Of a stretch of 64,000 nt of DNA, positions 46,677 to 62,228 are shown in pieces. Made by a program: the position numbers and the translations under genes. How positions within the stretch are numbered: position 1 is the first letter of the stretch; every line of letters starts with the position of its first letter. A model generated the notes under the pieces. That model was not told the origin of the DNA and searched no databases. It worked only from the letters and a program-made list of their open reading frames with translations. The DNA comes from Salinivenus iranica (GTDB taxonomy: Bacteria > Bacteroidota > Rhodothermia > Rhodothermales > Salinibacteraceae), in assembly GCA_002894665.1 (NCBI GenBank), contig NCRB01000003.1, positions 62,001 through 126,000 of the forward strand, given 5' to 3'.

Positions 46677-47327
46677 TCAGAACGTGCGAATGAGGCCGAG
46701 CACGCGACCGATGACGTAGTAGTCGGCGTCCGTCGGCGAGAACGTGTCCTCGACGTAGTGGGGCGCCGCCGGGCGGAGGTGAATTTTGCGGTTGGCAAAC
46801 TCGTACTCGCGGGCCAGCAGTTGATCCTGGAGGAGGACCGCCACGAGCGTCCGGTTCTGCAGGTCGTCCCACTCCATCTCCTCAATCAGCAGCAGGTCGC
46901 CCTTGTTGATGCCCCTCTCATTCATGCCGTCGTCCCCGGCCCGCCCGAGAAGGCAGTTGTCCTCGTCGTCGGCGTCACGCAAGAGGGTGTAGTCCACGGA
47001 CAGGGTGCCGGTGGGCCGCTCGCGTAGGCGCTCCGGGTGGGCGCTGGGGGTGCGGCTCACGATGGGCAGGCTCGGGGGGCTGCCGCCCCTCCCGAACGGA
47101 TCCTGCTCCTGGTCGACCAGGCGGATGCTTCGGGCCTTGTGCTTCTCGCGCTCGATCCACCCTTTCTTCTCAAGCTTGTGAAGAAGCTTGTAGACCCCGT
47201 TCGTGGACGAGATGTCCAGGGCATCCCCGATCTCCTGGAGAGTCGGGGGCTTCTGGTGCCGTTCGATGTACCGCTCGATAAAGTCGTAGGCCCGATTCTG
47301 GCGTTGCGTAAGGGGATCCTTGCTCAT
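46677..47327 (-). CDS. lexA: LexA-family repressor lacking self-cleavage residues
   Basis: The 216-residue protein has a perfect LexA winged helix (PPTLQEIGDALDISSTNGVYKLLHKLEKKGWIERE, residues 27-61) and an S24-type C-terminal domain (LPIVSRT, GINKGDLLLIEE, IHLRPAAPHY). Aligned by eye to E. coli LexA, the cleavage site Ala84-Gly85 is Ala96-His97, catalytic Ser119 is Gly134 (GDDGMNERGI) and catalytic Lys156 is Ala172 (QLLAREY). It should bind DNA and dimerise but not cleave itself. It is divergent from mraZ. ATG at 47327 starts MSKDPLTQRQNRAYDFI, the usual LexA beginning. The gene symbol refers to the family, not to a proven SOS role. Confidence 0.85.
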   Translation of the reverse strand: MSKDPLTQRQNRAYDFIERYIERHQKPPTLQEIGDALDISSTNGVYKLLHKLEKKGWIEREKHKARSIRLVDQEQDPFGRGGSPPSLPIVSRTPSAHPERLRERPTGTLSVDYTLLRDADDEDNCLLGRAGDDGMNERGINKGDLLLIEEMEWDDLQNRTLVAVLLQDQLLAREYEFANRKIHLRPAAPHYVEDTFSPTDADYYVIGRVLGLIRTF

Positions 47328-47410
47328 AGGTCCGGAGGAGGAGCAACGGAAGAAAAGAACCGACCGGGACGGGGAATGAGTGGGGGCTCCGGGTAATTTT
47401 CCGGGGACAA

Positions 47411-47440
47411 TCAACATATGTGTGACAATGCCAGCGGGCA
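47411..47440 (-). promoter_or_regulatory. Candidate promoter of the lexA-like gene
   Basis: On the minus strand TTGCCC is followed, after 17 nt, by TATGTT, roughly 80-110 nt upstream of the lexA-like start. The minus-35 is weak. The nearest GTGAAAA dyad lies 12-15 bp further upstream, a place where a bound repressor or activator could influence this promoter. Confidence 0.3.
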
Positions 47441-47451
47441 AAAGAGAAAGG

Positions 47452-47489
47452 GTGAAAATGTTTTCACAAGGGGGTGAAAATATTTTTCT
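47452..47489. promoter_or_regulatory. Two tandem operator-like dyads between lexA-like gene and mraZ
   Basis: The first site is a perfect dyad GTGAAAATGTTTTCAC (47452-47467; GTGAAAA, TG, TTTTCAC). The second, GTGAAAA-TA-TTTTTCT (47474-47489), matches it except at the outer right end. Their centres are 22 bp apart, two helical turns, so two dimers would sit on the same DNA face. They stand out as an AT-rich island in GC-rich DNA, 125-162 bp upstream of the lexA-like start and about 100 bp upstream of the mraZ promoter. The likeliest binder is the LexA-like protein itself, by autoregulation; that is inference. Confidence 0.7.
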
Positions 47490-47588
47490 GAGAGGGGAAG
47501 GCGATGCCGATAGGGTGTCCGGGAGCATGTGCACACCCCCTAAATCGAAAAGAATGGAGTCGAAAAACGGCTTCAAACGGCGCTGAAC

Positions 47589-47643
47589 TTGACATTGACC
47601 AGGGCGCGCGTACATTGTGGAGCGCGTGGGGAAATGTGGGGAA
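47589..47643 (+). promoter_or_regulatory. mraZ/dcw promoter with MraZ boxes
   Basis: A near-consensus promoter is visible: TTGACA (47589-47594), 16 nt, TACATT (47611-47616). Directly downstream lie two identical GTGGGGAA boxes at 47626-47633 and 47636-47643, exactly 10 bp apart, and a weaker TGGA at 47618. MraZ proteins studied in E. coli and Mycoplasma bind TGGG-type direct repeats with a 10-bp period just upstream of mraZ. MraZ bound here would block initiation, so the cluster is probably autorepressed. The start codon of mraZ is at 47718. Confidence 0.75.
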
Positions 47644-47717
47644 CTGTCCCAGGAAGTTCGCTCGCTTCGCTATTCTCGTTTGTCGATCCGACGCGCCGTC
47701 CGTGGGCCGCTTCCGAT

Positions 47718-48155
47718 ATGGCATTCAAAGGACAGGCCGAATATTCCGTTGACAGCAAGGGGCGGGTCGCCATCCCGGCCCAGATGCGGAAGGCTATGTC
47801 GCCGGCGGCAAACGAGACCTTTACGATCACACGGGGCTTTGAGGATTGCATCTTCCTGTACCCAATGGACCAGTGGGCGGACATCGAGGAGGAGATCGAT
47901 GAACTGAACATGTACGACCGGGAGGTCCGAACCTTTGTCCGCCTCATCATGCGGTGGGCGAGCGAGGTCTCCCTCGATGGGCAGGGACGCATCAGCATCC
48001 CGAACCCGCTCCTTGACTTCGCCGGGCTCGACGATTCGGCACAAATTATAGGGGCGTTCGACCACATCGAGATTTGGGACCCGGCACAGTTCGACGGGTA
48101 CCTCAACGAGACGCCCGCCGATTACGAGACGCTTGCCGAGAGTGTGATGCGGTAA
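47718..48155 (+). CDS. mraZ: Transcriptional regulator MraZ
   Basis: The 145-residue protein has two AbrB-like swapped-hairpin motifs: FKGQAEYSVDSKGRVAIPAQMRKAM (residues 3-27) and RWASEVSLDGQGRISIPNPLLDFAGL (residues about 79-105), each with the D-x-K/Q-GR core that contacts DNA. MraZ is the conserved first gene and regulator of the dcw cluster. Its start is an ATG without a Shine-Dalgarno sequence. rsmH follows after 30 nt. Confidence 0.96.
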   Translation: MAFKGQAEYSVDSKGRVAIPAQMRKAMSPAANETFTITRGFEDCIFLYPMDQWADIEEEIDELNMYDREVRTFVRLIMRWASEVSLDGQGRISIPNPLLDFAGLDDSAQIIGAFDHIEIWDPAQFDGYLNETPADYETLAESVMR

Positions 48156-48185: not shown

Positions 48186-49187
48186 ATGGCCGCCAACGAT
48201 TCTGAGGACAACGCCTCCCCGGACGGAGATCCGCTGCGGTACGCGACCGATTTCCACGCACCTGTTCTTTCACATGACGTGCAGGCCCGGCTGGTCACGG
48301 CCTCGGGCGGACGCTACGTGGACGCGACCCTGGGCGGGGGCGGGCACGCCCGCTCCCTGCTCGACGCACTGGGCCCCGACGCCGTGGTGCTGGGCATCGA
48401 CCAGGACCCCGACGCACTGGCCACGGCTCGCGATCGCCTCGCTGAGGCCCGTGAGGCCGGGTGCTTCCGGGCCGTCCGCGGCAACTTTGGGGACCTGGAG
48501 CGCCTCCTCCGCGCCGAAGACTTCGTGCCGGTGGACGGCATCCTGCTCGACTTGGGCGTCTCCTCGCACCAGATCGACGCGCCCGAACGGGGCTTCAGTT
48601 TTCAGGCGGACGGTCCGCTCGACATGCGGATGGACCCGCGCCGCGGCCTCACGGCCCGCCAGGTGGTAAATGCCTGGCCCGAGCGCGATCTCCGCGAGGC
48701 CCTTCGCGACTACGGCGACGAGCGCCGGGCGGGGCGCATCGCCCACGCCATCGTAGAGGCGCGCCCGCTCGATACCACCGGCGACCTGGCCGATACGGTG
48801 CGCGGCGCCGTCCCGCCGCCCGACGAGGTGAAAACCCTCGCCCGGGTGTTCCAGGCCCTCCGCATCGTCGTGAATGCAGAACTGGACATGCTGGAGCGCG
48901 CCCTGGAGCAGAGCACGGCGGTGGTGCGCCCCGGCGGCCGCATTGCCACCATTAGCTACCATTCGCTGGAGGATCGGCGCGTAAAGCGCTACCTCCGCTA
49001 CGGGAATTTTGAGGGCACGCCCCGCCGGGACCTCTACGGCAACCGGGTGGCGCCCTGGACGGAGACGCCCCGCGGCCCCATTGAGGCCAGCGAAGAGGAA
49101 GTGGCGGCGAATCCGCGGGCCCGGAGCGCACGCCTTCGTGTGGCCGAGCGTCAGGACGATGAGGAGATGGGCCCCCCGGTTCCGTAG
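48186..49187 (+). CDS. rsmH: 16S rRNA m4C1402 methyltransferase
   Basis: The 333-residue protein has the RsmH signature set: [32 protein letters not shown] (SAM-binding), [34 protein letters not shown] and [22 protein letters not shown], ending with [16 protein letters not shown]. It methylates N4 of C1402 in 16S rRNA. It holds the usual second place in the dcw cluster, between mraZ and ftsL. Length is standard. Confidence 0.96.
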
Positions 49188-49216
49188 CGCAGCGCCACGA
49201 ATGCGCCTGCACGTTT

Positions 49217-49246
49217 CATTCGATAGCTTCTCATTCGATAGCTTCT
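49217..49246. repeat. Perfect 15-bp tandem duplication between rsmH and ftsL
   Basis: CATTCGATAGCTTCT occurs twice head to tail at 49217-49231 and 49232-49246. The element lies in the 68-nt gap between rsmH and ftsL, ending 9 nt before the ftsL ATG at 49256, and is less GC-rich than its surroundings. Confidence 0.85.
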
Positions 49247-49255
49247 CAATACCTG

Positions 49256-49822
49256 ATGTCCACATACCGTTCGCCGCGCCCCTCACGCGACCCGCCCCGC
49301 GGGCGGGACCGTGGGGACGACGGGCGACGGGGTGGTTCCCTGCCCATGAGCCGACGCGACTCTCCCATTTCACGGCCCTCCGCCCCCCGGTCCGGCGCAC
49401 AGCGGTCCGGGCGTGGGGACGGGGCGCCGGCCGGAGCGTCGGGACAAACGGCCTCCGGGTGGGCGCGGCACAGCACGGCCCTTCCGGGCTGGACCGACCT
49501 GGAAGGGCCGAAAAACCAGCATCGTCGGAGGCAGGAAGACGACTCGTTTTTGCAGCGCATGTCCACGGGACGCTTTGCGCTGCTCGTCCTGCTCATTGCC
49601 GGGGCCTTTACGCTGTACGTGGGGCACGTGCACGCGACAAAAGACCTGCTGGACGAGGTGCAGGAGGCCCGCACGACGAACCAGCGGCTGCACCTAAAGC
49701 ACAATCGGCTGCAGGGCGTCTACGACCGCAAAACGAGCCCGCACGTCATTTACGAACGGGCCCGCGAGCTGGGCCTGGAGGCCAGCGTGAGCTACGGTCC
49801 GCCCATTGCCCTTGAGAACTAA
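49256..49822 (+). CDS. ftsL: FtsL-like cell division protein with long basic N-terminal extension
   Basis: The 188-residue protein is bitopic: one membrane helix (residues about 106-122, RFALLVLLIAGAFTLYVGHV) followed by a short coiled coil (DLLDEVQEARTTNQRLHLKHNRLQGVYDRKTSP) and YERARELGLEAS, the FtsL/DivIC pattern. Position between rsmH and ftsI supports FtsL, which recruits FtsQ, FtsB and FtsW/FtsI to the septum. The N-terminal 100 residues are Arg/Ser/Pro/Gly-rich and basic, unlike the acidic neighbours and longer than usual. A later start (ATG 49346, MSRRDSPIS, or ATG 49559) would shorten it. Confidence 0.8.
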   Translation: MSTYRSPRPSRDPPRGRDRGDDGRRGGSLPMSRRDSPISRPSAPRSGAQRSGRGDGAPAGASGQTASGWARHSTALPGWTDLEGPKNQHRRRQEDDSFLQRMSTGRFALLVLLIAGAFTLYVGHVHATKDLLDEVQEARTTNQRLHLKHNRLQGVYDRKTSPHVIYERARELGLEASVSYGPPIALEN

Positions 49823-49888
49823 CTCCCTTTCACTGCGAACGAAGGCAGATTCTCGCTCGCACGTTGTCATTCACCCCCCGCCATTCCC

Positions 49889-51826
49889 GTGAGCCCCAAG
49901 GAGCAAATCCGGACCCGGATGTACATGATGCTGACGCTGCTCAGCATTGTGCCCGTGATTGTGGCCGGCCAGATGGGCTGGGCCGTGATCGCGGACCGGG
50001 GCGAGCTGCGGGCCCGGGCGAAGGCACAATCGCGGTCGACGGTCGAGGTGCCGGCCATGCGGGGCCGCATTCTCGACCGGGCGGGCCGCTCGCTCGCCAT
50101 CAACACGGCCCAGTACGACCTCGCCCTGGACCCGACGGTCGACGGCTTCGAGTCGCAGGCCGATGCCTTCTACGAGCAGCTGGCGGAGCTGACGGGGGCG
50201 TCGGCGGCGCGCTTTCGGCAGCAGGTCGCCAACCGACACAGCCCGGAGTACGTGGCGCTCTACGACGGCCTCACGGCGGCCCAGCAGGAGCAGGTGCGCG
50301 AGTGGGAGGTGCCCGGTGTGATTCTCACCCCGGAGTTTGCCCGCCGCTACATTCACGAGACGACGGCGGCGCACGTGCTGGGGCACGTGGGGAGCGACGG
50401 GCACGGCCTCAGTGGACTGGAGGTGGCCTACGATGATACGCTTGCGGGCACGCCGGGGGAGCGCGTAGTGAAGCGCGACCGGAGCGGGCGCATTCAGGCC
50501 TTCGTGGGGGGGCGCGTGACGCCCCCTGAGCACGGCAAAAACCTCGTGCTCACCCTCGACCTCGCCCGGCAGGCGGCCCTCGAAGATGAGCTGCGCCGGG
50601 GCGTGCAGGAGAGCGGGGCCGACTGGGGGACCGCGGTGGCGATGGATCCGTCGACCGGGGCCATCCTGGCGATGGCCAACGTGCCCACCTACAACCCGAA
50701 CCGGCCCGGGGCGGCGACGGAAGGGGCCCGCCGCAACCGGGCGATCACCGACCGCTACGAGCCCGGCTCCACCTTCAAGCTCGTGGGCGCCACGGCGGCC
50801 GTCGACCAGGGACTCGTCGAGATGGACGATTCCGTGGAGACGGGCGACGGGTGGGCGGTCTTCCACGGCTACACGATGAAGGACATTTCCGCCTACGGAA
50901 CGATCTCTTTCCAGGAGGTCCTCTCGAAGTCGAGCAACGTGGGGATGGCCAAGACGGTGCGTCGTCACCTTGAGCCGGGCGTCTTCTACCAGTACGCGCG
51001 CAACTTCGGGTTCAGTCAGCCGACGTGGATCGATCTCCCAGGCGAGCAGGGCGGGGTCCTGAAGCGTCCCAACGAGTGGAGCCAGACCACGCAGACCTCC
51101 ATGGCCATCGGGTACGAGGTGTCCGTGACGCCGCTGCAGCTGGTGACGGCGTACAGCGCCCTCGCCAACGGCGGGCGGCTGATGCAGCCCTACGTGGTGG
51201 CCGAGCAGCGCGACATGACGGGCAACACCCTCTGGGAAAACGAGCCCGACTCCATCCGCCGGGTGATGAAGCCGGAGACGGCCCGGACGCTGCGCCCGGC
51301 CTTCGAGCAGGTGGTGCAGGAGGGCACGGGCACGGAGGCCGACGTGGCCGGCTTCGACGTGGCGGGCAAGACGGGGACCGCGCTGGAGGCGGCCGCGGGC
51401 GACTATTCCGACGAGCGGGCGCGGGCGTCGTTCGTGGGCTTCTTCCCGGCCGACGACCCGGAGGTGACGCTGCTGGTGATGATGGGCGCTCCCGAGACGA
51501 GCATCTACGGCGGGGCTGTGGCGGCGCCGGTCTTTCATCGGATCGCCCGGCGGTGGGCGGGCACCTTCCCGGAGGTTGTGGACCGCATGACCGCCGATCC
51601 CCCGGAGACGGTGCCCGCGTCTGTGAAGGGAATGCGACCGGCCGTCCCGGCGGAGCAGGCGCGCACGCTGCCGGACCTCGACGGCCTCAGCACGCGCCGC
51701 GCCCTCCACTGGCTGCGCCGCCACGGGGTCGATGTGCAGGTGGAGGGACAGGGAGCGGTGGCGGCCCAACGGCCGCGTTCCGGCACGCCCCTCCCCGACC
51801 GCATCCGACTCGAAGGGGCCTCGTGA
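49889..51826 (+). CDS. ftsI: Septal peptidoglycan transpeptidase (PBP) with PASTA domain
   Basis: The 645-residue class B PBP has one N-terminal membrane helix, a dimerisation/pedestal domain starting AMRGRILDRAGRSLAINTAQYDLALDP, and a transpeptidase domain with the three active-site motifs: S294-T-F-K (EPGSTFKLVG), S348-S-N (LSKSSNVGM) and K494-T-G (VAGKTGTALE). A single C-terminal PASTA-like domain (LPDLDGLSTRRALHWLRRHGVDVQVEGQGAV) resembles that of Spo5-type and Bacteroidota FtsI. It cross-links septal wall with FtsW. The start is a GTG at 49889. murE follows after 3 nt. Confidence 0.95.
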   Translation: MSPKEQIRTRMYMMLTLLSIVPVIVAGQMGWAVIADRGELRARAKAQSRSTVEVPAMRGRILDRAGRSLAINTAQYDLALDPTVDGFESQADAFYEQLAELTGASAARFRQQVANRHSPEYVALYDGLTAAQQEQVREWEVPGVILTPEFARRYIHETTAAHVLGHVGSDGHGLSGLEVAYDDTLAGTPGERVVKRDRSGRIQAFVGGRVTPPEHGKNLVLTLDLARQAALEDELRRGVQESGADWGTAVAMDPSTGAILAMANVPTYNPNRPGAATEGARRNRAITDRYEPGSTFKLVGATAAVDQGLVEMDDSVETGDGWAVFHGYTMKDISAYGTISFQEVLSKSSNVGMAKTVRRHLEPGVFYQYARNFGFSQPTWIDLPGEQGGVLKRPNEWSQTTQTSMAIGYEVSVTPLQLVTAYSALANGGRLMQPYVVAEQRDMTGNTLWENEPDSIRRVMKPETARTLRPAFEQVVQEGTGTEADVAGFDVAGKTGTALEAAAGDYSDERARASFVGFFPADDPEVTLLVMMGAPETSIYGGAVAAPVFHRIARRWAGTFPEVVDRMTADPPETVPASVKGMRPAVPAEQARTLPDLDGLSTRRALHWLRRHGVDVQVEGQGAVAAQRPRSGTPLPDRIRLEGAS

Positions 51827-51829
51827 CCT

Positions 51830-53371
51830 ATGCCCACTGACGACGCACATACGGCCTCGTCGCCCGAAGCGGACGGTCCCGCGTCGCCGCTGGCATGGTC
51901 GGCGCTGCACCGCCGCCTGGACGCTGAGGGGCTGCTGGGAACGGTTTGGCGCGGGCGGGAGGCGCCGGCGCCCGACACACTTGTGATCAACCACCTGACG
52001 GACGATAGTCGGGCGGTGGTGCCCGGCGGGGCCTTCGTCGCGATTCGCGGCGTGGCCGCCGACGGACATTCGTTCATTGACAAGGCTGTTCAGAATGGCG
52101 CCCGCCTCGTGGTGTGCGAGGCGGTGCCGGACGGCGTGCGTACGCGCCGGCCCGGGGTCGTCTTCGTGCGCGTGACGGACACCCGCGCGGCCCTGGCCGA
52201 ACTGGCCGCCGCCCGGTATGGGGACCCGGCGGAGGCCCTGCGGCTCGTGGGCGTGACGGGCACCAACGGAAAGACGACGGTGGCCGTCCTCGTGCACCAC
52301 CTGCTCGCGGCCCGCAGTGCCCCCGCGGGCCTGCTCAGCACCATCGAGGTGCGCGGGGCGGGTGAAGAGGCCCCGACCTCGTTGACCACGCCGGGCCCGC
52401 TCGCCCTGCACCGCCTGCTGCGTCGCATGGTCGATCGGGGGTGTCGTGCCTGCGTGATGGAGGTCTCCTCCCACGCCCTCACGCAGAAGCGGGTGCACGG
52501 GCTTGCGTTCGAGGCGGCGGTCTTTACGAACCTCACGACCGACCATCTCGACTACCACGACTCGATGGCGGCCTACCGGGACGCCAAGAAGCGTCTCTTC
52601 GACGGGTTGCCGCCGGGCGCAACGGCGCTCTACAATGCCGACGACGGGCACGGGGCGACGATGGTGGCCGACACGGCCGCCGAGGCGGTCTCGTACGGGG
52701 TCGAATCCCCGGCGGACATCGCGGTGACGGTGCAGGCGGAGAGACTCGACGGGCTGCACCTGGCGATTGAGGGGCGCGAGCGGCGCTTTCGGCTCGCCGG
52801 GCGGTTCAACGCCTACAACCTCGGCGCCGCCTACGGCGTGGGGCGGGCCCTCGGCGGCGAGGCCGAGACTGTGCTCGACGTCCTGGCCGACGCGCCGCCG
52901 GTGCCGGGCCGCTTCGAGCCGCTTCGGTTTGACGGAGGGCCCACCGTCATCGTCGACTACGCCCACACGCCCGATGCGCTCGAGAACATCCTCCGGTCGG
53001 GGCGCGACACGGCCCCGGCGGAGACCACGCTCTGGTGCGTATTCGGGTGTGGGGGCGACCGCGACCGCGGCAAGCGGCCCGAGATGGGGCGCATCGCCGA
53101 GCGCCTCGCCGACCGCGTGATTGTGACGAGCGACAACCCTCGCACCGAGGCGCCCGACGACATCCTCGACGACATCCGCGGCGGCATGGAGCGCCCGGAG
53201 GACATGCAGTGGATCGTGGACCGCGAGGCGGCGATCCGGGCGGCCGCGGCGGGGGCGGCGCCCGCCGACGTGGTTGTGATTGCCGGGAAAGGACACGAAA
53301 CGACGCAAACCATCGGCACCGAAAAACGACCGTTCGACGACCGCGACATGGCCCGAAAATACTTCAGTTGA
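51830..53371 (+). CDS. murE: UDP-MurNAc-tripeptide synthetase, meso-DAP type
   Basis: The 513-residue Mur ligase has the three-domain layout with P-loop VTGTNGKTTVAVL, the central HGLAFEAAVFTNLTTDHLDYHDSM and the C-terminal DYAHTPDALENIL and GKGHETTQ segments. The substrate motif reads SDNPRTEAPDDIL; DNPR is the form found in enzymes adding meso-diaminopimelate, whereas Lys-adding ligases differ here. The wall is therefore predicted to be of the DAP type. It is tightly packed behind ftsI. Confidence 0.95.
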   Translation: MPTDDAHTASSPEADGPASPLAWSALHRRLDAEGLLGTVWRGREAPAPDTLVINHLTDDSRAVVPGGAFVAIRGVAADGHSFIDKAVQNGARLVVCEAVPDGVRTRRPGVVFVRVTDTRAALAELAAARYGDPAEALRLVGVTGTNGKTTVAVLVHHLLAARSAPAGLLSTIEVRGAGEEAPTSLTTPGPLALHRLLRRMVDRGCRACVMEVSSHALTQKRVHGLAFEAAVFTNLTTDHLDYHDSMAAYRDAKKRLFDGLPPGATALYNADDGHGATMVADTAAEAVSYGVESPADIAVTVQAERLDGLHLAIEGRERRFRLAGRFNAYNLGAAYGVGRALGGEAETVLDVLADAPPVPGRFEPLRFDGGPTVIVDYAHTPDALENILRSGRDTAPAETTLWCVFGCGGDRDRGKRPEMGRIAERLADRVIVTSDNPRTEAPDDILDDIRGGMERPEDMQWIVDREAAIRAAAAGAAPADVVVIAGKGHETTQTIGTEKRPFDDRDMARKYFS

Positions 53372-53412
53372 TTGAGTGAGGAGCTTCGGAGCCAGAGAGC
53401 ATCACCGTTGGT

Positions 53413-53436
53413 GCTCCCGCGCTCCCGTGCTCCCAC
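53413..53436. repeat. Three 8-bp tandem repeats before mraY
   Basis: GCTCCCGC, GCTCCCGT and GCTCCCAC follow each other at 53413-53436 inside the 76-nt gap between murE and mraY. A small stem CACC-GTT-GGTG overlaps the left end. Similar GCTCCCAT words occur in the gap at 5325-5340, so the octamer may be a recurrent intergenic motif here. Confidence 0.6.
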
Positions 53437-53447
53437 ACCCTCACAGA

Positions 53448-54605
53448 ATGCTCTACTACCTCATCGACTACATTGAGCGGCTCTACCACCCGCCGGGGTT
53501 TCAGGTGATTCGGTTTATCACCGTCCGGTCGGCGCTGGCGGCCATCACCGCGCTGGGGATTTCTCTGCTGGCGGGGCGCCGGATTATCGACTGGCTGCGC
53601 CGCGAGCAGATTGGGGAGCAGGTGCGCGAGGGCGAGGCGGCCGGCGCGGTGAGCCACGCCCACAAGGCCGGCACGCCCACGATGGGCGGCGTCATCATTC
53701 TGCTGTCGCTGCTGGGGGCGACGCTGCTGTGGGGCGCCATCGCCAACCCGTACGTGTGGCTCGCCATGGGGGGGACGGCGGCGCTGGGCGTCGTGGGCTT
53801 TGCCGACGACTACATCAAGACGGTGCAGGGGCGGAAGGACGGGCTGCCCGCCCGTGTGAAGCTCGCCGGCCAGGCGGCCGTCGGGCTGTTCGTGGGCGGC
53901 GTGCTCTACTTTTATCCGACCTTTTCCGAATACAATACGCTCACGTTCGTCCCATTTTTCAAGGATCAGGTGCTCAATTACGACCTCTTCCGCTTCCTGG
54001 AGCTGGGGATGGATCTGGGGTGGGTCATCTACCTGCCGGTCGTGGTGTTCATCCTGACGGCGGTCTCCAACGCGGTGAACCTGACCGATGGGCTCGATGG
54101 CCTGACGACGGGGGTCACGGCGTTCGTGTCGCTGGGCCTGACCGCGCTGGTGTACGTGTCGGGCAACGTCGAGCTCGCGACGTTCCTGAACGTGATGTAC
54201 CTGCCGGGGACGGGCGAGCTCACGGTGTTCGTGTCGGCGATGGCGGCGGCCTGCTTCGGGTTTTTGTGGTACAACGGCTACCCGGCCTCCGTCTTCATGG
54301 GCGACACCGGCGCGCTGGCGCTGGGCGGGGCGGTGGGCGCCACCGTCCTCATGGTGCGCAAGGAACTGATGCTGCCGCTCCTCTGCATCGTGTACTTCGC
54401 CGAGGCGGTGTCGGTGATTCTGCAGACCAGCTACTTCAAGTACACGCGCCGCCGCACCGGGACGGGCAAGCGCATTTTTCGGATGGCGCCGCTGCACCAT
54501 CACTACGAGGCGCTCGGGATGCACGAGGCGAAGATCGTGACCCGCTTCTGGATTGTGACGGCCATTACGGTCATCGCTGCTTTGCTTACGCTTCGCATTC
54601 GATAA
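53448..54605 (+). CDS. mraY: Phospho-MurNAc-pentapeptide transferase
   Basis: The 385-residue enzyme has about ten membrane helices and the MraY motifs KAGTPTMGGVIIL, GFADDYIKTVQGRKDGL (catalytic Asp pair), NAVNLTDGLDGLTTG and MGDTGALALGGAVG, plus FRMAPLHHHYEALGMHEAKIVTRFW near the C terminus. It forms lipid I from UDP-MurNAc-pentapeptide and undecaprenyl phosphate. ATG 53448 fits the family start (MLYYLIDYIERLY). Confidence 0.96.
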   Translation: MLYYLIDYIERLYHPPGFQVIRFITVRSALAAITALGISLLAGRRIIDWLRREQIGEQVREGEAAGAVSHAHKAGTPTMGGVIILLSLLGATLLWGAIANPYVWLAMGGTAALGVVGFADDYIKTVQGRKDGLPARVKLAGQAAVGLFVGGVLYFYPTFSEYNTLTFVPFFKDQVLNYDLFRFLELGMDLGWVIYLPVVVFILTAVSNAVNLTDGLDGLTTGVTAFVSLGLTALVYVSGNVELATFLNVMYLPGTGELTVFVSAMAAACFGFLWYNGYPASVFMGDTGALALGGAVGATVLMVRKELMLPLLCIVYFAEAVSVILQTSYFKYTRRRTGTGKRIFRMAPLHHHYEALGMHEAKIVTRFWIVTAITVIAALLTLRIR

Positions 54606-54635
54606 CGGACTCATTCACTCGACTCGCTTCCGTGC

Positions 54636-56006
54636 ATGACGCCGGACGAGATCCGCACACAACAGGTGACCGTGGTGGGGGGCGCGCGCAGTGGGCGCGC
54701 CGTGGCCCGGTTGTTGGCCGAGGCCGGGGCCGAGGTGTTTTTGACCGAGCAGGGCCCGCCGCCGCAGGGGCTGGTGGCGGCGCTCGACGCCGTCGGCGTG
54801 GCCTACGAGTTCGAGGGGCACACGGCCCGCGCGGTCGACGCCGACGTCATGGTGGTGAGCCCCGGCGTGCCCACGCAGTCGAACGTGGTGCAGCAGGCCC
54901 TCCGGTCAGGGATCTCCGTGTATTCGGAGATCGAGGCGGCGTCCTGGTTCTGCGAGGCGCCCATCGTGGCAATTACCGGCACCAACGGCAAGACGACCAC
55001 GACCAGCCTGACGGGGCACGTCTTTCGGCGGGGGCGGGGCGAGGAGCAGGTCATCGTGGCCGGCAACATCGGGTACCCGTTTTCGGACTACGTGCGCGAG
55101 GTGGAGCCGACCGACGTGGTGGTGCTGGAGGTGTCCAGCTTCCAGCTCGAACACGTCGAGACCTTCCGGCCGCGCGTCAGCGTCCTCCTCAACATCACGC
55201 CCGACCATCTGAATCGCTACGAGAACTTCGAGACCTACACGCAGGCCAAGTGCAACATTTTTCGCAATCAGGGCGACGGGGACGCACTGGTGTACAACCA
55301 CGACGACGATCGCGTGCGCACCCGGGTGCAGCAGGCCGCCGCCGAGCAGGGCTTCCGGGCCCTTCCCTTCACGCAGCAGGGCGTGCCGGACGCCGGGGCG
55401 TTTCTGCGCGACGACCGCATCATCCTTCGCATTGACGACGAGGACGAACCGCTCATGCCCCAAGACGAACTGGCCCTTCGCGGGCGCCACAATCTCTATA
55501 ATTCTCTCGCCGCGGCGATCTCGGCCCGTGTCATGGAGGTGGAGAACGACGTGATTCGGGAAAGCCTGGCGGGGTTCGAGGGGGTGCCGCACCGGCTGGA
55601 AGAGGTGCGCACGATTGATGGGGTGCTGTACGTCAACGACTCGAAGGCGACCAACGTGAACGCGGTGTGGTACGCGCTGGAGAGCTTCGACCGGCCGGTG
55701 GTGCTGATTGCCGGGGGGCGGGACAAGGGCAACGACTACACGGACCTGAAGCCGCTGGTGCGCCGGGGCGTGCGGGCCGTCGTGGCCCTCGGCGAAAGTG
55801 CCGAGACGGTGTACGACGAACTGGGGGCCGAGGCGCCGCAGCGGGCCCGCGTGCAGTCGATGGAGGACGCCCTTGCGCAGGCGCAGCGCTTTGCGCAGCC
55901 CGGCGACGCGGTGCTGCTGAGTCCAGCCTGCTCGTCGTTCGACATGTATGAAAATTACGAGGCGCGCGGGGACACCTTTCGCCGCCTGGTGCAGACCTTG
56001 CTGTAA
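54636..56006 (+). CDS. murD: UDP-MurNAc-L-alanine:D-glutamate ligase
   Basis: The 456-residue ligase begins with a Rossmann-like VTVVGGARSGRAVARLL, then the P-loop ITGTNGKTTTTSL, the central FQLEHVETFRPRVSVLLNITPDHLNRYENFETY, and the C-terminal YVNDSKATNVNAVWYALESF and LIAGGRDKGNDYTDL. It adds D-Glu to UDP-MurNAc-L-Ala. It follows mraY by 30 nt and has the usual MurD length. Confidence 0.96.
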   Translation: MTPDEIRTQQVTVVGGARSGRAVARLLAEAGAEVFLTEQGPPPQGLVAALDAVGVAYEFEGHTARAVDADVMVVSPGVPTQSNVVQQALRSGISVYSEIEAASWFCEAPIVAITGTNGKTTTTSLTGHVFRRGRGEEQVIVAGNIGYPFSDYVREVEPTDVVVLEVSSFQLEHVETFRPRVSVLLNITPDHLNRYENFETYTQAKCNIFRNQGDGDALVYNHDDDRVRTRVQQAAAEQGFRALPFTQQGVPDAGAFLRDDRIILRIDDEDEPLMPQDELALRGRHNLYNSLAAAISARVMEVENDVIRESLAGFEGVPHRLEEVRTIDGVLYVNDSKATNVNAVWYALESFDRPVVLIAGGRDKGNDYTDLKPLVRRGVRAVVALGESAETVYDELGAEAPQRARVQSMEDALAQAQRFAQPGDAVLLSPACSSFDMYENYEARGDTFRRLVQTLL

Positions 56007-56063
56007 GATCATTCCCTCTTCGTGCCGGGCACAGGCCCGGTTCCAATCATCCCCTTCGCGACG

Positions 56064-57257
56064 ATGAGCGCGATTCAAACGGCAAAGCACATCCTGACCG
56101 ACCGTGCCCCCGCGGACAAGTACGTGGTGTGGGTGGTGCTGGCCCTGTCGGCCGCCGGGGTGGTGGCGGTGTACAGCGCCGTCACGTACCTGGCCGAGGT
56201 GCGGGCCGGGGTGGGGCCGGAGCAGTTCCTGCTGCGCCACCTCCTGCGGGTCGGCATCGCGCTGGGGGCCATGGGCGTCGTCAGCCTCATCGACTACCGC
56301 ACGCTGGCGAAGTACAGCCGCCTCGCCCTCATTGCCGCGCTGGGGCTTCTGGTGGCGGTGAAGGGAGTCGGATCCTTTTCCGAGGGCGCCGACCGCTGGC
56401 TGCAGATCGCCGGCTTCGGGTTCCAGCCGTCCGACCTTGCACGGGTGGCCCTCGTGTTTTACGTGGCCGTCCTGCTCGTGAAGAAGCAGGACTATATAAA
56501 GAGCTTCGGGAAAGCGCTCGTCCCCATTCTCGTGTGGGTGTTTGCCACCGTGGTGCTCATCGGGGTCGACGACCTGTCGACCGCCGCGGTGCTCCTCGGG
56601 GCGGTGATGCTCATGTGCTTCGTGGGACGCGTCAGCGTATTCCAGCTCCTTGGGCTCGGCCTGGTTGGGGTGCTGCTGGGCGGGGCGCTGATCATGAACT
56701 CGCCCGCCCGGGCGGCCCGGGTGGAGGCGTACCTGGGAATGGACCTGTTCGACAACACCAACACGGAGCAGGTGATGGACCGGCAGGGGGAGCGGTACCA
56801 GTCGCAGCAGGCCCGAATGGCGTTCGCGCTGGGGGGGCTGACGGGCGTGGGGCCCGGAAAAAGCACCCAGCGCGACTTCCTGCCCGCCCCGTACAACGAC
56901 TTCATCTTTGCCATTATCGCCGAGGAGTACGGCATCCTTGGGGCCCTTCTGCTCCTCGCGGGATTTTGCGTCCTGCTGTTTCGGGGCTACCTCCGCATTG
57001 CTCGGGACGCGCCCGATCCGCTGGGGCTTCTCTTGGCCGTCGGGTTCACGACCCTGATCGTGGCCTACGGCTTCGTCCACGCCGGGGTGTCGTGCGGGTT
57101 GCTGCCCGTGACGGGACTTCCCATGCCCTTTGTGTCGTACGGCGGGACCTCGCTACTGGCGAACGGCCTCATGGCCGGGGTGCTGCTGAACATCTCACGT
57201 CAATCCACGCGCCGCGCCGCGCCGTCGGAGCGCCGCCCCACATCCGCAATCGCGTAG
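56064..57257 (+). CDS. ftsW: Septal SEDS glycosyltransferase FtsW
   Basis: The 397-residue SEDS protein has about ten membrane helices with the motifs AVYSAVTYLAEVRAG, EGADRWLQIAGFGFQPSDLARVALVFYVA, the large loop with QSQQARMAFALGGLTGVGPGKSTQRDFLPAPYNDFIFAIIAEEYGILG, and TGLPMPFVSYGGTSLLANGLMAGVLLNISR. It polymerises lipid II at the septum with FtsI. ATG 56064 (MSAIQTAKHIL) is preferred; a GTG at 56022 would add 14 residues. murG follows after 5 nt. Confidence 0.95.
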   Translation: MSAIQTAKHILTDRAPADKYVVWVVLALSAAGVVAVYSAVTYLAEVRAGVGPEQFLLRHLLRVGIALGAMGVVSLIDYRTLAKYSRLALIAALGLLVAVKGVGSFSEGADRWLQIAGFGFQPSDLARVALVFYVAVLLVKKQDYIKSFGKALVPILVWVFATVVLIGVDDLSTAAVLLGAVMLMCFVGRVSVFQLLGLGLVGVLLGGALIMNSPARAARVEAYLGMDLFDNTNTEQVMDRQGERYQSQQARMAFALGGLTGVGPGKSTQRDFLPAPYNDFIFAIIAEEYGILGALLLLAGFCVLLFRGYLRIARDAPDPLGLLLAVGFTTLIVAYGFVHAGVSCGLLPVTGLPMPFVSYGGTSLLANGLMAGVLLNISRQSTRRAAPSERRPTSAIA

Positions 57258-57262
57258 ACCGT

Positions 57263-58375
57263 ATGAGCGCACGACCGCCGCACATTTTGATGGCTGGAGG
57301 GGGCACGGGGGGACACGTGTACCCCGCCATCGCCATTGCCGACGCCGTGACGGCCCTGCGTCCGGACGCCCGGGTCGTGTTTGCGGGGACCGAGGACCGG
57401 CTGGAGGCGCGGGCGGTGCCGGCGGCGGGCTACGCCCTGCACCCCATCACGGCGCAGGGCGTGCAGCGCCGCCTCACGTGGAAAAACGTGACGATGCCGC
57501 TGCAGGTGGCGCGCGGTCTCGTACAGAGCTGGCGGCTGGTGGGGGCCATCGAGCCCGACGTGGCGGTGGGCACGGGCGGGTACGTGTCCGGCCCGGTGCT
57601 GCTGGCGGCCCGGCTGCGGGGGCGGCCCCTCCTCATCCAGGAGCAGAACGCCTACGCGGGCGTCACGAACCGCCTCCTCAGCTACCTGGCCGACCGGGTG
57701 CACCTGGCCTTCGACGAGGCGCGCGACTGGGTGCCCGCCGACCGGAGCGTGGTGAGCGGCAACCCGACCCGCAAGGCCCTCCGCGAGGCCGATCGGGGCG
57801 AGGCGCGGGCGGCCCTGCAGATGCCCGCCGAGGCGCGCGTCCTGCTCGTGCTGGGCGGCTCGCTGGGCAGCGCCGCGATCAACGAGGCCGTGGCCGCGGC
57901 CCTCCCTGCGCTGCTGGAGGACGACCGGACGCACGTCGTGTGGCAGGCCGGATCGCGCTACCACGAGGCCCTCCGCGAACGGATCGACGACCACCCGCGC
58001 CTCCGCCTCGTCGAGTACATCGACCGCATGGACCGCGCCTACGCCGCCGCCGACCTGGCGCTGTGCCGGGCCGGGGCCCTCACCTGCAGCGAACTGACCG
58101 TGACGGGCACGCCCGCCGTGCTCGTGCCCTCCCCCAACGTGGTGGCCGATCACCAGACGAAAAATGCACGGAGCATGGAACGATCCGGGGCCGCGCGGCT
58201 GCTTCCCGAGCCGGAGCTCGACGCACGGCTGACCGACGTGGTGCTCGGCCTGCTGGACGACGCCGACGCCCGGGCCGACATGGCGGCCGCCGCCCGCACG
58301 ATGGCGCGCCCCGATGCCGCCGAGACGATTGCCCGCGACGTGCTTGCCCTCGCCGACCAATACCGAACGAATTGA
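57263..58375 (+). CDS. murG: Lipid II synthase (GlcNAc transferase) MurG
   Basis: The 370-residue GT28 enzyme has the N-terminal acceptor loop MAGGGTGGHVYPAIAIADA, GTGGYVSGPVLLAARLRGRPLLIQEQNAYAGVTNRLL, and the donor-binding LLVLGGSLGSAAINEAVA and CRAGALTCSELTVTGTPAVLVPSPNVVADHQTKNA. It adds GlcNAc to lipid I. A strong palindrome lies 55 nt after its stop, before murC. Confidence 0.96.
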   Translation: MSARPPHILMAGGGTGGHVYPAIAIADAVTALRPDARVVFAGTEDRLEARAVPAAGYALHPITAQGVQRRLTWKNVTMPLQVARGLVQSWRLVGAIEPDVAVGTGGYVSGPVLLAARLRGRPLLIQEQNAYAGVTNRLLSYLADRVHLAFDEARDWVPADRSVVSGNPTRKALREADRGEARAALQMPAEARVLLVLGGSLGSAAINEAVAAALPALLEDDRTHVVWQAGSRYHEALRERIDDHPRLRLVEYIDRMDRAYAAADLALCRAGALTCSELTVTGTPAVLVPSPNVVADHQTKNARSMERSGAARLLPEPELDARLTDVVLGLLDDADARADMAAAARTMARPDAAETIARDVLALADQYRTN

Positions 58376-58430
58376 ATGTGCACCGACACGCTACAATGGC
58401 GGGCCCTCGGTCCGTCTTGTCCGTGAGTAA

Positions 58431-58451
58431 CGCCGTCCCGCCGGGACGGCG
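58431..58451. repeat. GC-rich palindrome between murG and murC
   Basis: CGCCGTCCCG and CGGGACGGCG are perfect 10-bp inverted arms around a single C at 58441. In RNA this would form a stable hairpin in the 121-nt gap between murG and murC. There is no T tract, so it is not a classic terminator; it may be a processing or attenuation structure. Confidence 0.8.
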
Positions 58452-58496
58452 CTGACGGGGATGCCTTTATGCGATCAATTGTACCTCCTTCAACCG

Positions 58497-59924
58497 ATGA
58501 CGGAACTCCGAAAACAACCGGCTCTGGGCCGCATCCGCCAGGTGCACATGGTGGGCATTGGGGGCATCGGCATGAGCTCCATCGCCGAGGTGCTCCTCAA
58601 CCGCGGCTACACCGTTACGGGCTCCGACCTGGAGGCGAGCGACGTGACCGCGCGTCTGCAGGAGCAGGGCGCCACAATTTACGAGGGGCACGCCGCCGAG
58701 CAAATCGGGGACGCCGACGTGGTGGTCTACTCCAGCGCCATCAACCCGGAGAAGAACCCCGAAACGCGGGAGGCCGAGCGCCGCCGCATCTCGCTCATCC
58801 CGCGGGCCGAGATGCTGGGCGAGCTCATCCGCATGAAGTACGGGGTGGGCGTGGCCGGGACCCACGGCAAAACGACCACCACCTCCATGGCGGGCCTCGT
58901 GGTGGCCGAGGGCGGGTTCGACCCCACGGTCATTGTGGGCGGCAAGGTTACGGCCTTCGGCTCCAACGCCATCACGGGCGAGGGCGACGTCATCGTGATC
59001 GAGGCGGACGAGTACGACCGTACCTTTCTGCGGCTCACGCCCTCGGTGGCCGTCATCACGAGCATCGAGGAGGATCACCTCGACATCTACGACGACCTGG
59101 AAGACATCCAGTCCGCCTTCACGCAGTACGCCAACAGCGTACCGTTCTTCGGCGCCGCGGTGCTGTGCCTCGACGATCCGAACGTGCAGGCCATCGTGGG
59201 CGACATCGAGCGCCGCATCATCACGTACGGGACCACGCGCCAGGCCGAGGTGCGCGCCGAAAACATTCAGCGCGACGGACTCGACACGCGGTTCGACGTG
59301 ATCGCGCGGGATGAGCGTCTCGGCACCATCACCCTGCACGTGCCGGGAATGCACAACGTGCGAAACGCCCTGGCGGCGGTGGCGGTGGGCCTGGAGCTGG
59401 AGATCGGGTTCGACCAGATTCGTGAGGGGCTGGCGGGGTTTGCCGGGGTGCGCCGCCGCTTCGAAAAGATTGGGGAGGGGCGCGACGTGGTGGTGCTCGA
59501 CGACTACGCGCACCACCCGACCGAAATCCGCGCCACGCTCGACGCGGCGAGCCAGGGGTATCCCGATCGGCGCATCGTCGCCGTCTTTCAGCCGCACCTG
59601 TACTCCCGCACCCGCGACTTCCTCGACGACTTCGCCCGCTCGTTCTTCAACACCGACCAGCTGGTGCTCACCGACATCTACGGCTCGCGCGAGGAGCCGA
59701 TTGAGGACATGACCGGAGAGCGCCTGGCCGACCGGGCCGAGCAGTTTGGGCACCGGTCCGTCCACTACGTCCCCGACAAGACGGAAGTGCCGGGCTACCT
59801 GCTCGACCTTACCGAGCCGGGCGACGTGGTGCTGATGCTGGGGGCGGGCGACATCTGGCGGTACAGCCGCACCTTCGCCGACCTGCTCACCGAGTCCGAC
59901 GATCGCGACGCCCCGGCCGCGTAG
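58497..59924 (+). CDS. murC: UDP-N-acetylmuramate:L-alanine ligase
   Basis: The 475-residue ligase has VHMVGIGGIGMSSIAEVLLNRGYTVTGSD at the start, P-loop VAGTHGKTTTTSM, EADEYDRTFLRLTPSVAVITSIEEDHLDIY, VVLDDYAHHPTEIRATL and FQPHLYSRTRDFLDDFARSF. It adds the first L-Ala to UDP-MurNAc. The start is either ATG 58497 (MTELRKQPALGR, chosen because family homology starts just after it) or ATG 58461 with 12 more residues. No murB or ddl follows; ftsQ begins 39 nt downstream. Confidence 0.95.
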   Translation: MTELRKQPALGRIRQVHMVGIGGIGMSSIAEVLLNRGYTVTGSDLEASDVTARLQEQGATIYEGHAAEQIGDADVVVYSSAINPEKNPETREAERRRISLIPRAEMLGELIRMKYGVGVAGTHGKTTTTSMAGLVVAEGGFDPTVIVGGKVTAFGSNAITGEGDVIVIEADEYDRTFLRLTPSVAVITSIEEDHLDIYDDLEDIQSAFTQYANSVPFFGAAVLCLDDPNVQAIVGDIERRIITYGTTRQAEVRAENIQRDGLDTRFDVIARDERLGTITLHVPGMHNVRNALAAVAVGLELEIGFDQIREGLAGFAGVRRRFEKIGEGRDVVVLDDYAHHPTEIRATLDAASQGYPDRRIVAVFQPHLYSRTRDFLDDFARSFFNTDQLVLTDIYGSREEPIEDMTGERLADRAEQFGHRSVHYVPDKTEVPGYLLDLTEPGDVVLMLGAGDIWRYSRTFADLLTESDDRDAPAA

Positions 59925-59963
59925 ACCGGCCGCCCCGACGCCTTCACCCAATCCGTTTTGCTC

Positions 59964-60737
59964 ATGGCCTCGACCGAGTCCTCCACATTTGGACGCCGCG
60001 CGCTGCGCCTCCTCGGCCTTCTGGCCGGGGCCGCCGCCGTGGCGGCGCTCGGCGTGCTGGGCTGGCAGTGGCGCGCCAGCCGCACCGTCGGCGAGGTGGT
60101 GGTGCGGGGCACGACGCACGCCCCGCCCGATACCGTGCGCCGCCTGGCCCGGGTGGACAGCGGCGCCCCCCTGTCGTCGGTCGATGCCGCCCTCGTGGCC
60201 GACCGCGTGGAGCGCCATCCGTGGGTCGAGCGGGCGACAATTTCAAAACAGCACGCCTGGCGCACGCTCCACGTGGAGGTGACGGAGCGGACGCCCGCCG
60301 CCCTTGCCCTCGACCCGGCGGGCCGCCCCGCCTACGTCCTCGACACCGCCGGGTACGCCATGCCGCTCCCCGACAGCACCAGCAGCAGTGTGCCCCTCGT
60401 GCGCGGCCTGCCCGCCGACTTTCACCCGCTGCGCCGCCAGGCCCCGCCCCGCCTGCGGACCGTCCTCGCGGCGCTGGCGGAGAGCGAGGCCGAGCCCATC
60501 GTGAGCGAACTCGCCGTGCAGCCCGACAGCAGCGTGCACCTGATGACGACCCCCGTGGGCGAGCACGACGCCCTCCCGGTCCGGCTGGCGCCCGGCGACC
60601 CGCGCCCCCAGCTTCGAGAGCTCCGCGCCTTCGCCGCGCAGGTGCTGGCCACGCGGCCCGACGTGCCCATCGCCGAAATCGACCTCCGGTTCGACGGCCA
60701 AATTGTGACCCGTGAACAGCCCCTGGATGCCTCCTGA
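59964..60737 (+). CDS. ftsQ: Cell division protein FtsQ
   Basis: The 257-residue bitopic protein has a short cytoplasmic tail, one membrane helix (residues about 15-35, LLGLLAGAAAVAALGVLGWQW), a POTRA-like region (EVVVRGTTHAPPDTVRRLARVDSGAPLSSVDAALVADRVERHPWVERATI) and the FtsQ domain starting LHVEVTERTPAALALDPAGRPAYVLDTAGYAMP. It scaffolds the divisome with FtsL. It lies between murC and ftsA, the expected place. ATG 59964 is used; a TTG at 59958 is possible. Confidence 0.92.
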   Translation: MASTESSTFGRRALRLLGLLAGAAAVAALGVLGWQWRASRTVGEVVVRGTTHAPPDTVRRLARVDSGAPLSSVDAALVADRVERHPWVERATISKQHAWRTLHVEVTERTPAALALDPAGRPAYVLDTAGYAMPLPDSTSSSVPLVRGLPADFHPLRRQAPPRLRTVLAALAESEAEPIVSELAVQPDSSVHLMTTPVGEHDALPVRLAPGDPRPQLRELRAFAAQVLATRPDVPIAEIDLRFDGQIVTREQPLDAS

Positions 60738-60806
60738 TGCGCCGCATGCGTCCGGATCCGACACCGGACACGCCCGCGCCCTCCTGAATTCAACCCCCAT
60801 AGAGCC

Positions 60807-62066
60807 ATGAATGGAACACCCGTTGTAGGAGTCGACATCGGCACCACCAAGGTGTGTGCCGTGGTCGCCGCCGAGGACGACCTTGGCCGCGTCAACATTT
60901 TGGGGGTCGGCATGGCCCCATCCGACGGTCTCAACCGCGGGGTCGTCGTCAACATCGACCGCACCGTCAACGCCGTGCGCGAGGCCGTGGAAGAGGCCGA
61001 GCGCGCCGCCGGCGTGGAGGTGCAGGAGGTGATTGTCGGCATCGCCGGCGACCACGTGCAGAGCTTCCAAACGCGCGGCGTGGTGACGATCCGCTCCGAA
61101 GAGATCACGCAGAACGACGTCCAGCGCCTCCTCGAAGACACCATGCACGTGGCGCTGCCCGCCGACCGCGAGATCCTGCACGTCATCCCGCAGGAGTTCA
61201 TTGTGGACGGGCAGGACGGCGTGGCCGACCCCGTGGGCATGAGCGGGGTGCGCCTGGAGGCCGACGTCCACATCATCACGGGCCTCGTCTCCGCGGCCAA
61301 GAACGTGTACCGCTGCATCGAGAAGGCCGGCTTTGCGGTGTCCGACATCGTGCTGGAGCCGCTCGCCTCCTCCTTCAGCGTGCTGCACGACGACGAGAAG
61401 GAGGTGGGCGTGGCCCTCATCGACATCGGGGGCGGCACCACCGACATCGCGGTGTTCGAGGACCACACCATTCGCCACACCGCCGTCATCGCGGTGGCCG
61501 GCGACAAGGTGACCGACGACATCCGGAAGGGCCTCGGCGTGATGCGCGACCAGGCCGAACAGCTGAAGCGACAGTTCGGCGTGGCCCTCGCCGACCAGGC
61601 CGACCCGGACGAGCAGATCGAGATCCCCGGCATCGGCGGGCGCTCCGAGAAAACCATCGGGCGCGATACGCTCGCACAGGTGATCCAGCCCCGCCTCGAA
61701 GAGATCCTGGAGATCGCCGCCATGGAGATCAAGCGCAGCGGCTACGGCCGGCACCTGGGCGTGGGCTGCGTCCTTACGGGCGGCGGCTCGCTCGTGCCCG
61801 GGACCGACGAGCTGGCCGCCGAGGTGCTGGGCATGGAGGCGCGCATCGGACGCCCCATGGGCCTGAGCGGCGGGCTCGTGGAAGAGGTCGACAACCCAAA
61901 ATATGCCACCGGGGTTGGGCTTGTGCTCTACGGCATGCGCCCGGACATCATTGGTGGCACCACGCTCAGCGAAGAGGTGAACGCCGCGCGGAATGGGCGC
62001 GGGCAAGGGCGCTCGCTCATGGCCCGCATCGCCGATCGCATGCGGGCGTGGTTCGATGAGTTGTAG
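60807..62066 (+). CDS. ftsA: Cell division ATPase FtsA
   Basis: The 419-residue actin-like protein shows phosphate-1 GVDIGTTKVCAVVA, the SHS2 (1C) domain around residues 80-165 with VGIAGDHVQSFQTRG, phosphate-2 ALIDIGGGTTDIAVF, adenosine motif CVLTGGGSLVPGTDELA, and a C-terminal amphipathic helix (SLMARIADRMRAWFDEL) that anchors it to the membrane. It tethers FtsZ to the membrane and activates septal synthesis. Spacing to ftsZ is 162 nt. Confidence 0.96.
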   Translation: MNGTPVVGVDIGTTKVCAVVAAEDDLGRVNILGVGMAPSDGLNRGVVVNIDRTVNAVREAVEEAERAAGVEVQEVIVGIAGDHVQSFQTRGVVTIRSEEITQNDVQRLLEDTMHVALPADREILHVIPQEFIVDGQDGVADPVGMSGVRLEADVHIITGLVSAAKNVYRCIEKAGFAVSDIVLEPLASSFSVLHDDEKEVGVALIDIGGGTTDIAVFEDHTIRHTAVIAVAGDKVTDDIRKGLGVMRDQAEQLKRQFGVALADQADPDEQIEIPGIGGRSEKTIGRDTLAQVIQPRLEEILEIAAMEIKRSGYGRHLGVGCVLTGGGSLVPGTDELAAEVLGMEARIGRPMGLSGGLVEEVDNPKYATGVGLVLYGMRPDIIGGTTLSEEVNAARNGRGQGRSLMARIADRMRAWFDEL

Positions 62067-62228
62067 CGCCCCGTCGCATCCTCTCGACGCCTAGAGCACG
62101 CACAATCGTACGCCCTTTCACACTTACACTTTGGAGGCTCGGTGCTTTCCAGGCCGGGTCCGCTCACCCCGGCGCCGACGAGTCCTCCGCTCGCATTTTC
62201 AAACCACAGATCAACGCTGGAGGAACCC

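Follow-up and report, generated by a model that had tools for sequence, protein, structure and literature searches.

Which regulators act on the DNA between a LexA-like gene and mraZ, and is a LexA-type regulator thereby tied to cell division and wall synthesis? To our knowledge, little has been learned about how the dcw cluster is controlled in bacteria other than the models. We addressed the question in a window from Salinivenus iranica, by which we mean the whole stretch of 64,000 nucleotides that was analysed, where the LexA-like gene, here called lexL, and mraZ diverge from a gap of exactly 390 bp (47328-47717) between the lexL ATG (minus strand, 47327) and the mraZ ATG (47718). The features are as follows, in window positions:

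46677 to 47327, minus strand: lexL, encoding a LexA-fold regulator of 216 amino acids with a protease-dead S24 domain.
47413 to 47441, minus strand: putative lexL promoter, found by eye and not by a promoter tool (-35 TTGCCC at 47436-47441, N17 spacer, -10 TATGTT at 47413-47418).
47414 to 47422, no strand: recurring element ACATATGTG, on the lexL side of the dyads.
47452 to 47467, no strand: dyad 1, GTGAAAATGTTTTCAC, candidate LexL operator of 16 bp, GTGAAAA-N2-TTTTCAC.
47474 to 47489, no strand: dyad 2, GTGAAAATATTTTTCT, candidate LexL operator of 16 bp with an imperfect right arm (TTTTTCT).
47589 to 47616, plus strand: mraZ promoter TTGACA-N16-TACATT, found by a promoter tool and conserved in relatives.
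47627 to 47641, plus strand: two MraZ boxes, TGGGGAAATGTGGGG, TGGGG-N5-TGGGG, directly downstream of the mraZ -10.
47718 to 48155, plus strand: mraZ, dcw gene 1, with matches to PF02381 and TIGR00242.
48186 to 63581, plus strand: remaining dcw cluster within the window, from an rsmH/mraW-like to an ftsZ-like gene (62142-63581), taken from the open reading frame list and named by resemblance.

The preliminary description had proposed a divergent control region with tandem dyads, MraZ boxes and promoters for both sides, and all of these are present, the lexL promoter as a reading of the sequence only that is conserved within the genus. The tandem dyads are spaced by 22 bp, and none of 100 dinucleotide shuffles of the gap contained an equally good pair. 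In a whole-genome pattern search dyad 1 was the sole match with up to two mismatches. The element ACATATGTG was likewise absent from 100 shuffles of this gap, and the MraZ box pair, which begins 91 bp before mraZ, was found in one of 100. The dyads are upstream of both promoters, at a distance of 10 bp from the -35 of lexL and of about 100 bp from that of mraZ; the latter distance is unusual for a site of a simple repressor.

The mraZ side has the hallmarks of a MraZ-controlled dcw promoter, with mraZ as the first dcw gene and tandem TGGG-type boxes at the promoter. This is the known arrangement, in which mraZ heads the dcw cluster and the boxes lie at its start site (Eraso et al. 2014, as cited in PMC8475190). 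The difference is that the control region is shared here with another regulator gene and the candidate operators that belong to it. In the gaps of f60 and of part of the Chlorobi (f36 and f50, which were taken as Chlorobi because they carry the FMO protein) the MraZ boxes change from TGGGG/TGGGA to TGGTA/TGGTG repeats. Furthermore, an element resembling AATAAYNNCRATA is common to the families f27, f32, f39, f48 and f55, where it is found between the dyads and the MraZ boxes (upstream of mraZ at loci L165, L166, L169, L171, L172, L175 and L182, and in gaps L142-L145). Possibly it serves as an additional dcw promoter further upstream.

LexL is LexA-like in its domains and fold. Its N-terminus matches LexA_DNA_bind (Pfam: PF01726) with 67.9 bits against a cut-off of 23.7 and its C-terminus the S24 domain (Pfam: PF00717) with 35.3 bits, and the predicted model has the S24/LexA fold (mean pLDDT 86) with LexA as its best PDB matches in Foldseek. 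Against the lexA equivalog model TIGR00498 it reaches 101.4 bits, below the cut-off of 110.95, as does the canonical LexA of the same genome with 109.7 bits. The active site is a different matter: LexL reads G-D-D-G-M instead of G-x-S-M, with Gly at the position of the catalytic Ser and Ala at that of the catalytic Lys, and the Ala-Gly cleavage site is absent. Across 21 of 21 aligned LexL proteins D132, D133 and M135 are invariant, the Ser is replaced by Gly or Ala, and the Lys and Ala-Gly are gone. The LexL proteins of family f5 that adjoin mraZ (L128, L129 and L270) vary at the dead site. One motif there, PDDSM, keeps the Ser and has Arg at the Lys position, and another of these proteins reads PDNGM; they possibly represent an intermediate stage in the loss of cleavage.

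The preliminary description had suggested a search for conserved synteny of lexA-like genes divergent from mraZ, and the synteny turned out to extend far beyond close relatives. The LexL protein of the window is 99% identical to that of Salinivenus lutea, and a scan of genome contigs for relatives yielded three close relatives only. We ran a LexL profile on 395 genomes, of which 32 score at least 215 bits, with canonical LexA at 168 bits or below. Each of the 32 has lexL and mraZ in divergent orientation, mostly across a gap of 266-543 bp. Further dead LexL genes divergent from mraZ in f32, f5, f30 and f60 bring the pair to at least 48 genomes from about 14 families, spread over many lineages of the phylum Bacteroidota; for two lexL copies of f30, which lie at contig ends, linkage to mraZ is not judgeable. 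None of the canonical LexAs examined adjoins mraZ. The gene pyrG, the neighbour on the other side of lexL, is lost outside the closest families while the linkage to mraZ stays, which makes a neighbourhood that was merely inherited without selection unlikely.

In a maximum-likelihood tree that includes an E. coli LexA row, a branch (96/95) has all canonical LexAs on one side. The dead LexLs group together at 91/81, except for two long-branched f5 rows. In one f1 genome (G388, locus L124) an in-frame TGA interrupts lexL while mraZ is intact, which is either a disrupted gene or a sequencing error. The one f1 genome without LexL, G309, also has no MraZ match though it is 98% complete, so a joint loss is possible.

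Tandem dyads are found in most of the linked families, where they are better than nearly all shuffles. Most Rhodothermales families have the form GTG-N10-CAC, and the Chlorobi and f32 the form CTG-N10-CAG (or N11); f60 has one clear dyad. The LexA box of E. coli is CTG-N10-CAG, and the dyads have the same length of 16 bp and the same edge geometry. In 12 Rhodothermales genomes all sites with no or one mismatch fall in the lexL-mraZ gap, and in the Salinibacter and Rhodothermus relatives near-perfect copies occur in this gap only. In Chlorobi the best sites are mostly in the gap and some are elsewhere. A wider LexL regulon was considered and dropped, as looser patterns gave about as many hits as a reversed control, which is background level. 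Dyads are weak or missing in f3 and f5. The spacings within the pairs form classes of 22, 31-34 and 40-42 bp, which are near two, three and four helical turns; this phasing has p=5e-5 if families are independent and p=0.1 if they are collapsed to only three spacing classes.

Do these dyads serve mraZ, or only lexL itself? If LexL were nothing but an autoregulator, the dyads would serve its own promoter and their proximity to mraZ would be inherited gene order without regulatory meaning. This would by itself account for the linked genomes, where the dyads adjoin the lexL promoter: in f2, f4 and f8, by our sequence reading, 2-6 bp separate the end of the nearer dyad from a lexL hexamer that resembles a -10, and in the window the dyads are much closer to the -35 of lexL than to that of mraZ. 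The two possibilities come apart in f55, f27, f48 and f39, where the gene for a dead LexL is located apart from mraZ. Using a weight matrix trained on linked families only, we found that mraZ is preceded by a strong dyad pair in 6 of 10 genomes with unlinked lexL, as compared with 1 of 27 genomes that have no LexL (Fisher p=0.0006, with a score threshold that was chosen after the data had been seen and with genomes of one family that are not independent). Thresholds from 10 to 24 gave p values from 0.012 to 0.0006, and a threshold of 8 gave p=0.14, which is not significant. The six genomes are G365, G341 (whose LexL sequence itself was not read), G283, G192, G168 and G416. The other four of the ten have no pair at mraZ, two of them having a weak single dyad. 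Upstream of the moved lexL genes no pair was found in the four examined; there was one single dyad, located inside the preceding gene. G365 and G192 have no divergent gene that could own the dyads, as the preceding gene is oriented like mraZ; this makes mraZ the likeliest target in these two genomes. G283 and G341 do have another divergent gene to which the dyads might belong. Since the pairs stay at mraZ and are missing at the four moved lexL genes, the dyads appear to follow mraZ. Moreover, a factor with itself as sole target would be unlikely to persist across a phylum, and the decay of the pyrG but not the mraZ linkage also speaks against inherited order. Autoregulation as the only role is thus unlikely.

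Another regulator, either canonical LexA or an unrelated factor, might bind the dyads while LexL regulates something else. Family f30, whose LexL has a different recognition helix (STRAV), would fit, as it keeps lexL next to mraZ without a recognisable dyad. But the dyads have the geometry of a LexA box (16 bp, TG/CA edges), they vary between clades in step with LexL, and they occur in f2, where canonical LexA was not detected; furthermore, the promoters of canonical LexA and recA carry a different repeat, TGTG-N7-TGTG. We regard this explanation as quite improbable. In the Salinibacter relatives a direct repeat TGTK-N7-TGTG with an 11 bp period precedes canonical lexA, recA and a single Y-family polymerase gene (L002:1380-1492, L054-L058, L083-L086 and L093) and is a candidate for the SOS box of this order. 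We also considered a direct action of canonical LexA on the gap and rejected it, as a search of the gaps of Salinibacter and Rhodothermus for TGTK-N7-TGTG gave no match.

Behind a recO-like gene, the genome to which the window belongs also carries a canonical LexA (SAG, GQSM, SLKR), which argues against LexL being the SOS repressor. That LexL is nevertheless a conventional SOS LexA, with dcw in the SOS regulon through RecA-stimulated cleavage, would agree with its LexA domains and fold but is extremely improbable given the absence of the Ala-Gly site, Ser and Lys, the conservation of the dead motif, the canonical LexA elsewhere in the genome and the single good operator. With the self-cleavage chemistry lost and a canonical LexA present, a direct SOS link is not implied.

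Elements of the form ATATGTG or YATGTGY are found on both flanks of the dyad pair, in the window at 47414-47422 and 47526-47536 and also in gaps L004-L007, L009, L014, L109 and L115, several of which had none in 100 shuffles. They are present in families with canonical LexA (f1, f4, f8, f9 and f52), missing in f2, the family with canonical LexA undetected, and look like one half of the repeat in the canonical lexA and recA promoters. One could imagine that a single ancient duplication gave rise to a non-cleavable, dcw-dedicated LexA across several Bacteroidota classes, and that the ATATGTG elements let an SOS-active LexA control lexL where canonical LexA was kept, so that DNA damage would alter the transcription of division genes via LexL. 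This combined scenario is speculative and we give it slim odds.

We favour, with a probability of roughly 60%, that LexL is an ancient non-cleavable LexA paralog that acts as a dedicated local regulator of dcw and is autoregulated where it is divergent. The sequences establish a dead active site, a deep linkage to mraZ and tandem dyads that are nearly absent from the rest of the genome and persist at mraZ where lexL has moved. From this evidence, the link of a LexA-type regulator to dcw, as proposed in the preliminary description, is well supported by the synteny and by the dyads tracking mraZ, with the qualification that LexL is LexA-like in fold only and has lost the residues of self-cleavage. 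As to the further proposal that the regulators of both flanking genes act on the same DNA, dyads and MraZ boxes share one gap; direct action of LexL on dcw transcription, by activation, repression or looping, would have to be exerted from dyads that lie about 100 bp upstream of the mraZ promoter and next to that of lexL.

For LexL as a dedicated dcw regulator we propose the following mechanism. LexL dimers would use the LexA-type winged helix to bind both dyads, and cooperative binding is probable given spacings near two, three or four helical turns. LexL would probably repress its own gene where lexL is divergent, since in several families the lexL -10 directly adjoins the nearer dyad. Acting from the same dyads, some 100 bp upstream of the mraZ promoter, LexL would modulate dcw transcription, and MraZ would act separately and in parallel on its boxes at the start site. 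Because LexL presumably cannot cut itself, what sets its activity would have to be its level, a ligand, a partner or a modification.

The closest known systems each share part of this picture. Canonical LexA (E. coli; structures 1jhh, 3jso and 3k2z) has the same domain order, winged-helix DNA-binding domain, S24 fold and 16-bp dyad geometry, whereas LexL is without the self-cleavage residues, has tandem candidate operators at dcw and is very probably not the SOS repressor. In Synechocystis sp. PCC 6803, LexA has neither an Ala-Gly site nor the catalytic Ser; it regulates non-SOS genes, which belong to various cellular processes, and posttranslational control of it has been proposed (PMC7567884). 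The residue loss is alike, as LexL is also without the Ala-Gly site and catalytic Ser; LexL has lost the Lys in addition, accompanies a canonical LexA in most of the genomes studied, and has essentially one candidate operator locus, at dcw. The non-canonical LexA of Bacteroidetes is an S24-family repressor of the same phylum, with a CI-like N-terminal domain (CI-type HTH), an intact S24 catalytic dyad and control of SOS (PMC8565304); LexL has PF01726 instead and a dead site without the dyad. That paper does not mention mraZ. The preliminary description did not know this wiring to have been described, and searches for mraZ with LexA, LexA-like or Rhodothermus returned no description of it among the open-access papers covered.

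LexL is best described as a LexA-family regulator without the hallmark chemistry of its family that is tied to dcw. This reading predicts a footprint on the two dyads, one target locus and no response to RecA. Loss of MraZ in E. coli has no apparent phenotype (PMC8475190). If the reading is true, division and wall synthesis would be under another conserved regulator besides MraZ, and LexL would be a clear example of how a stress switch can become a different type of regulator.
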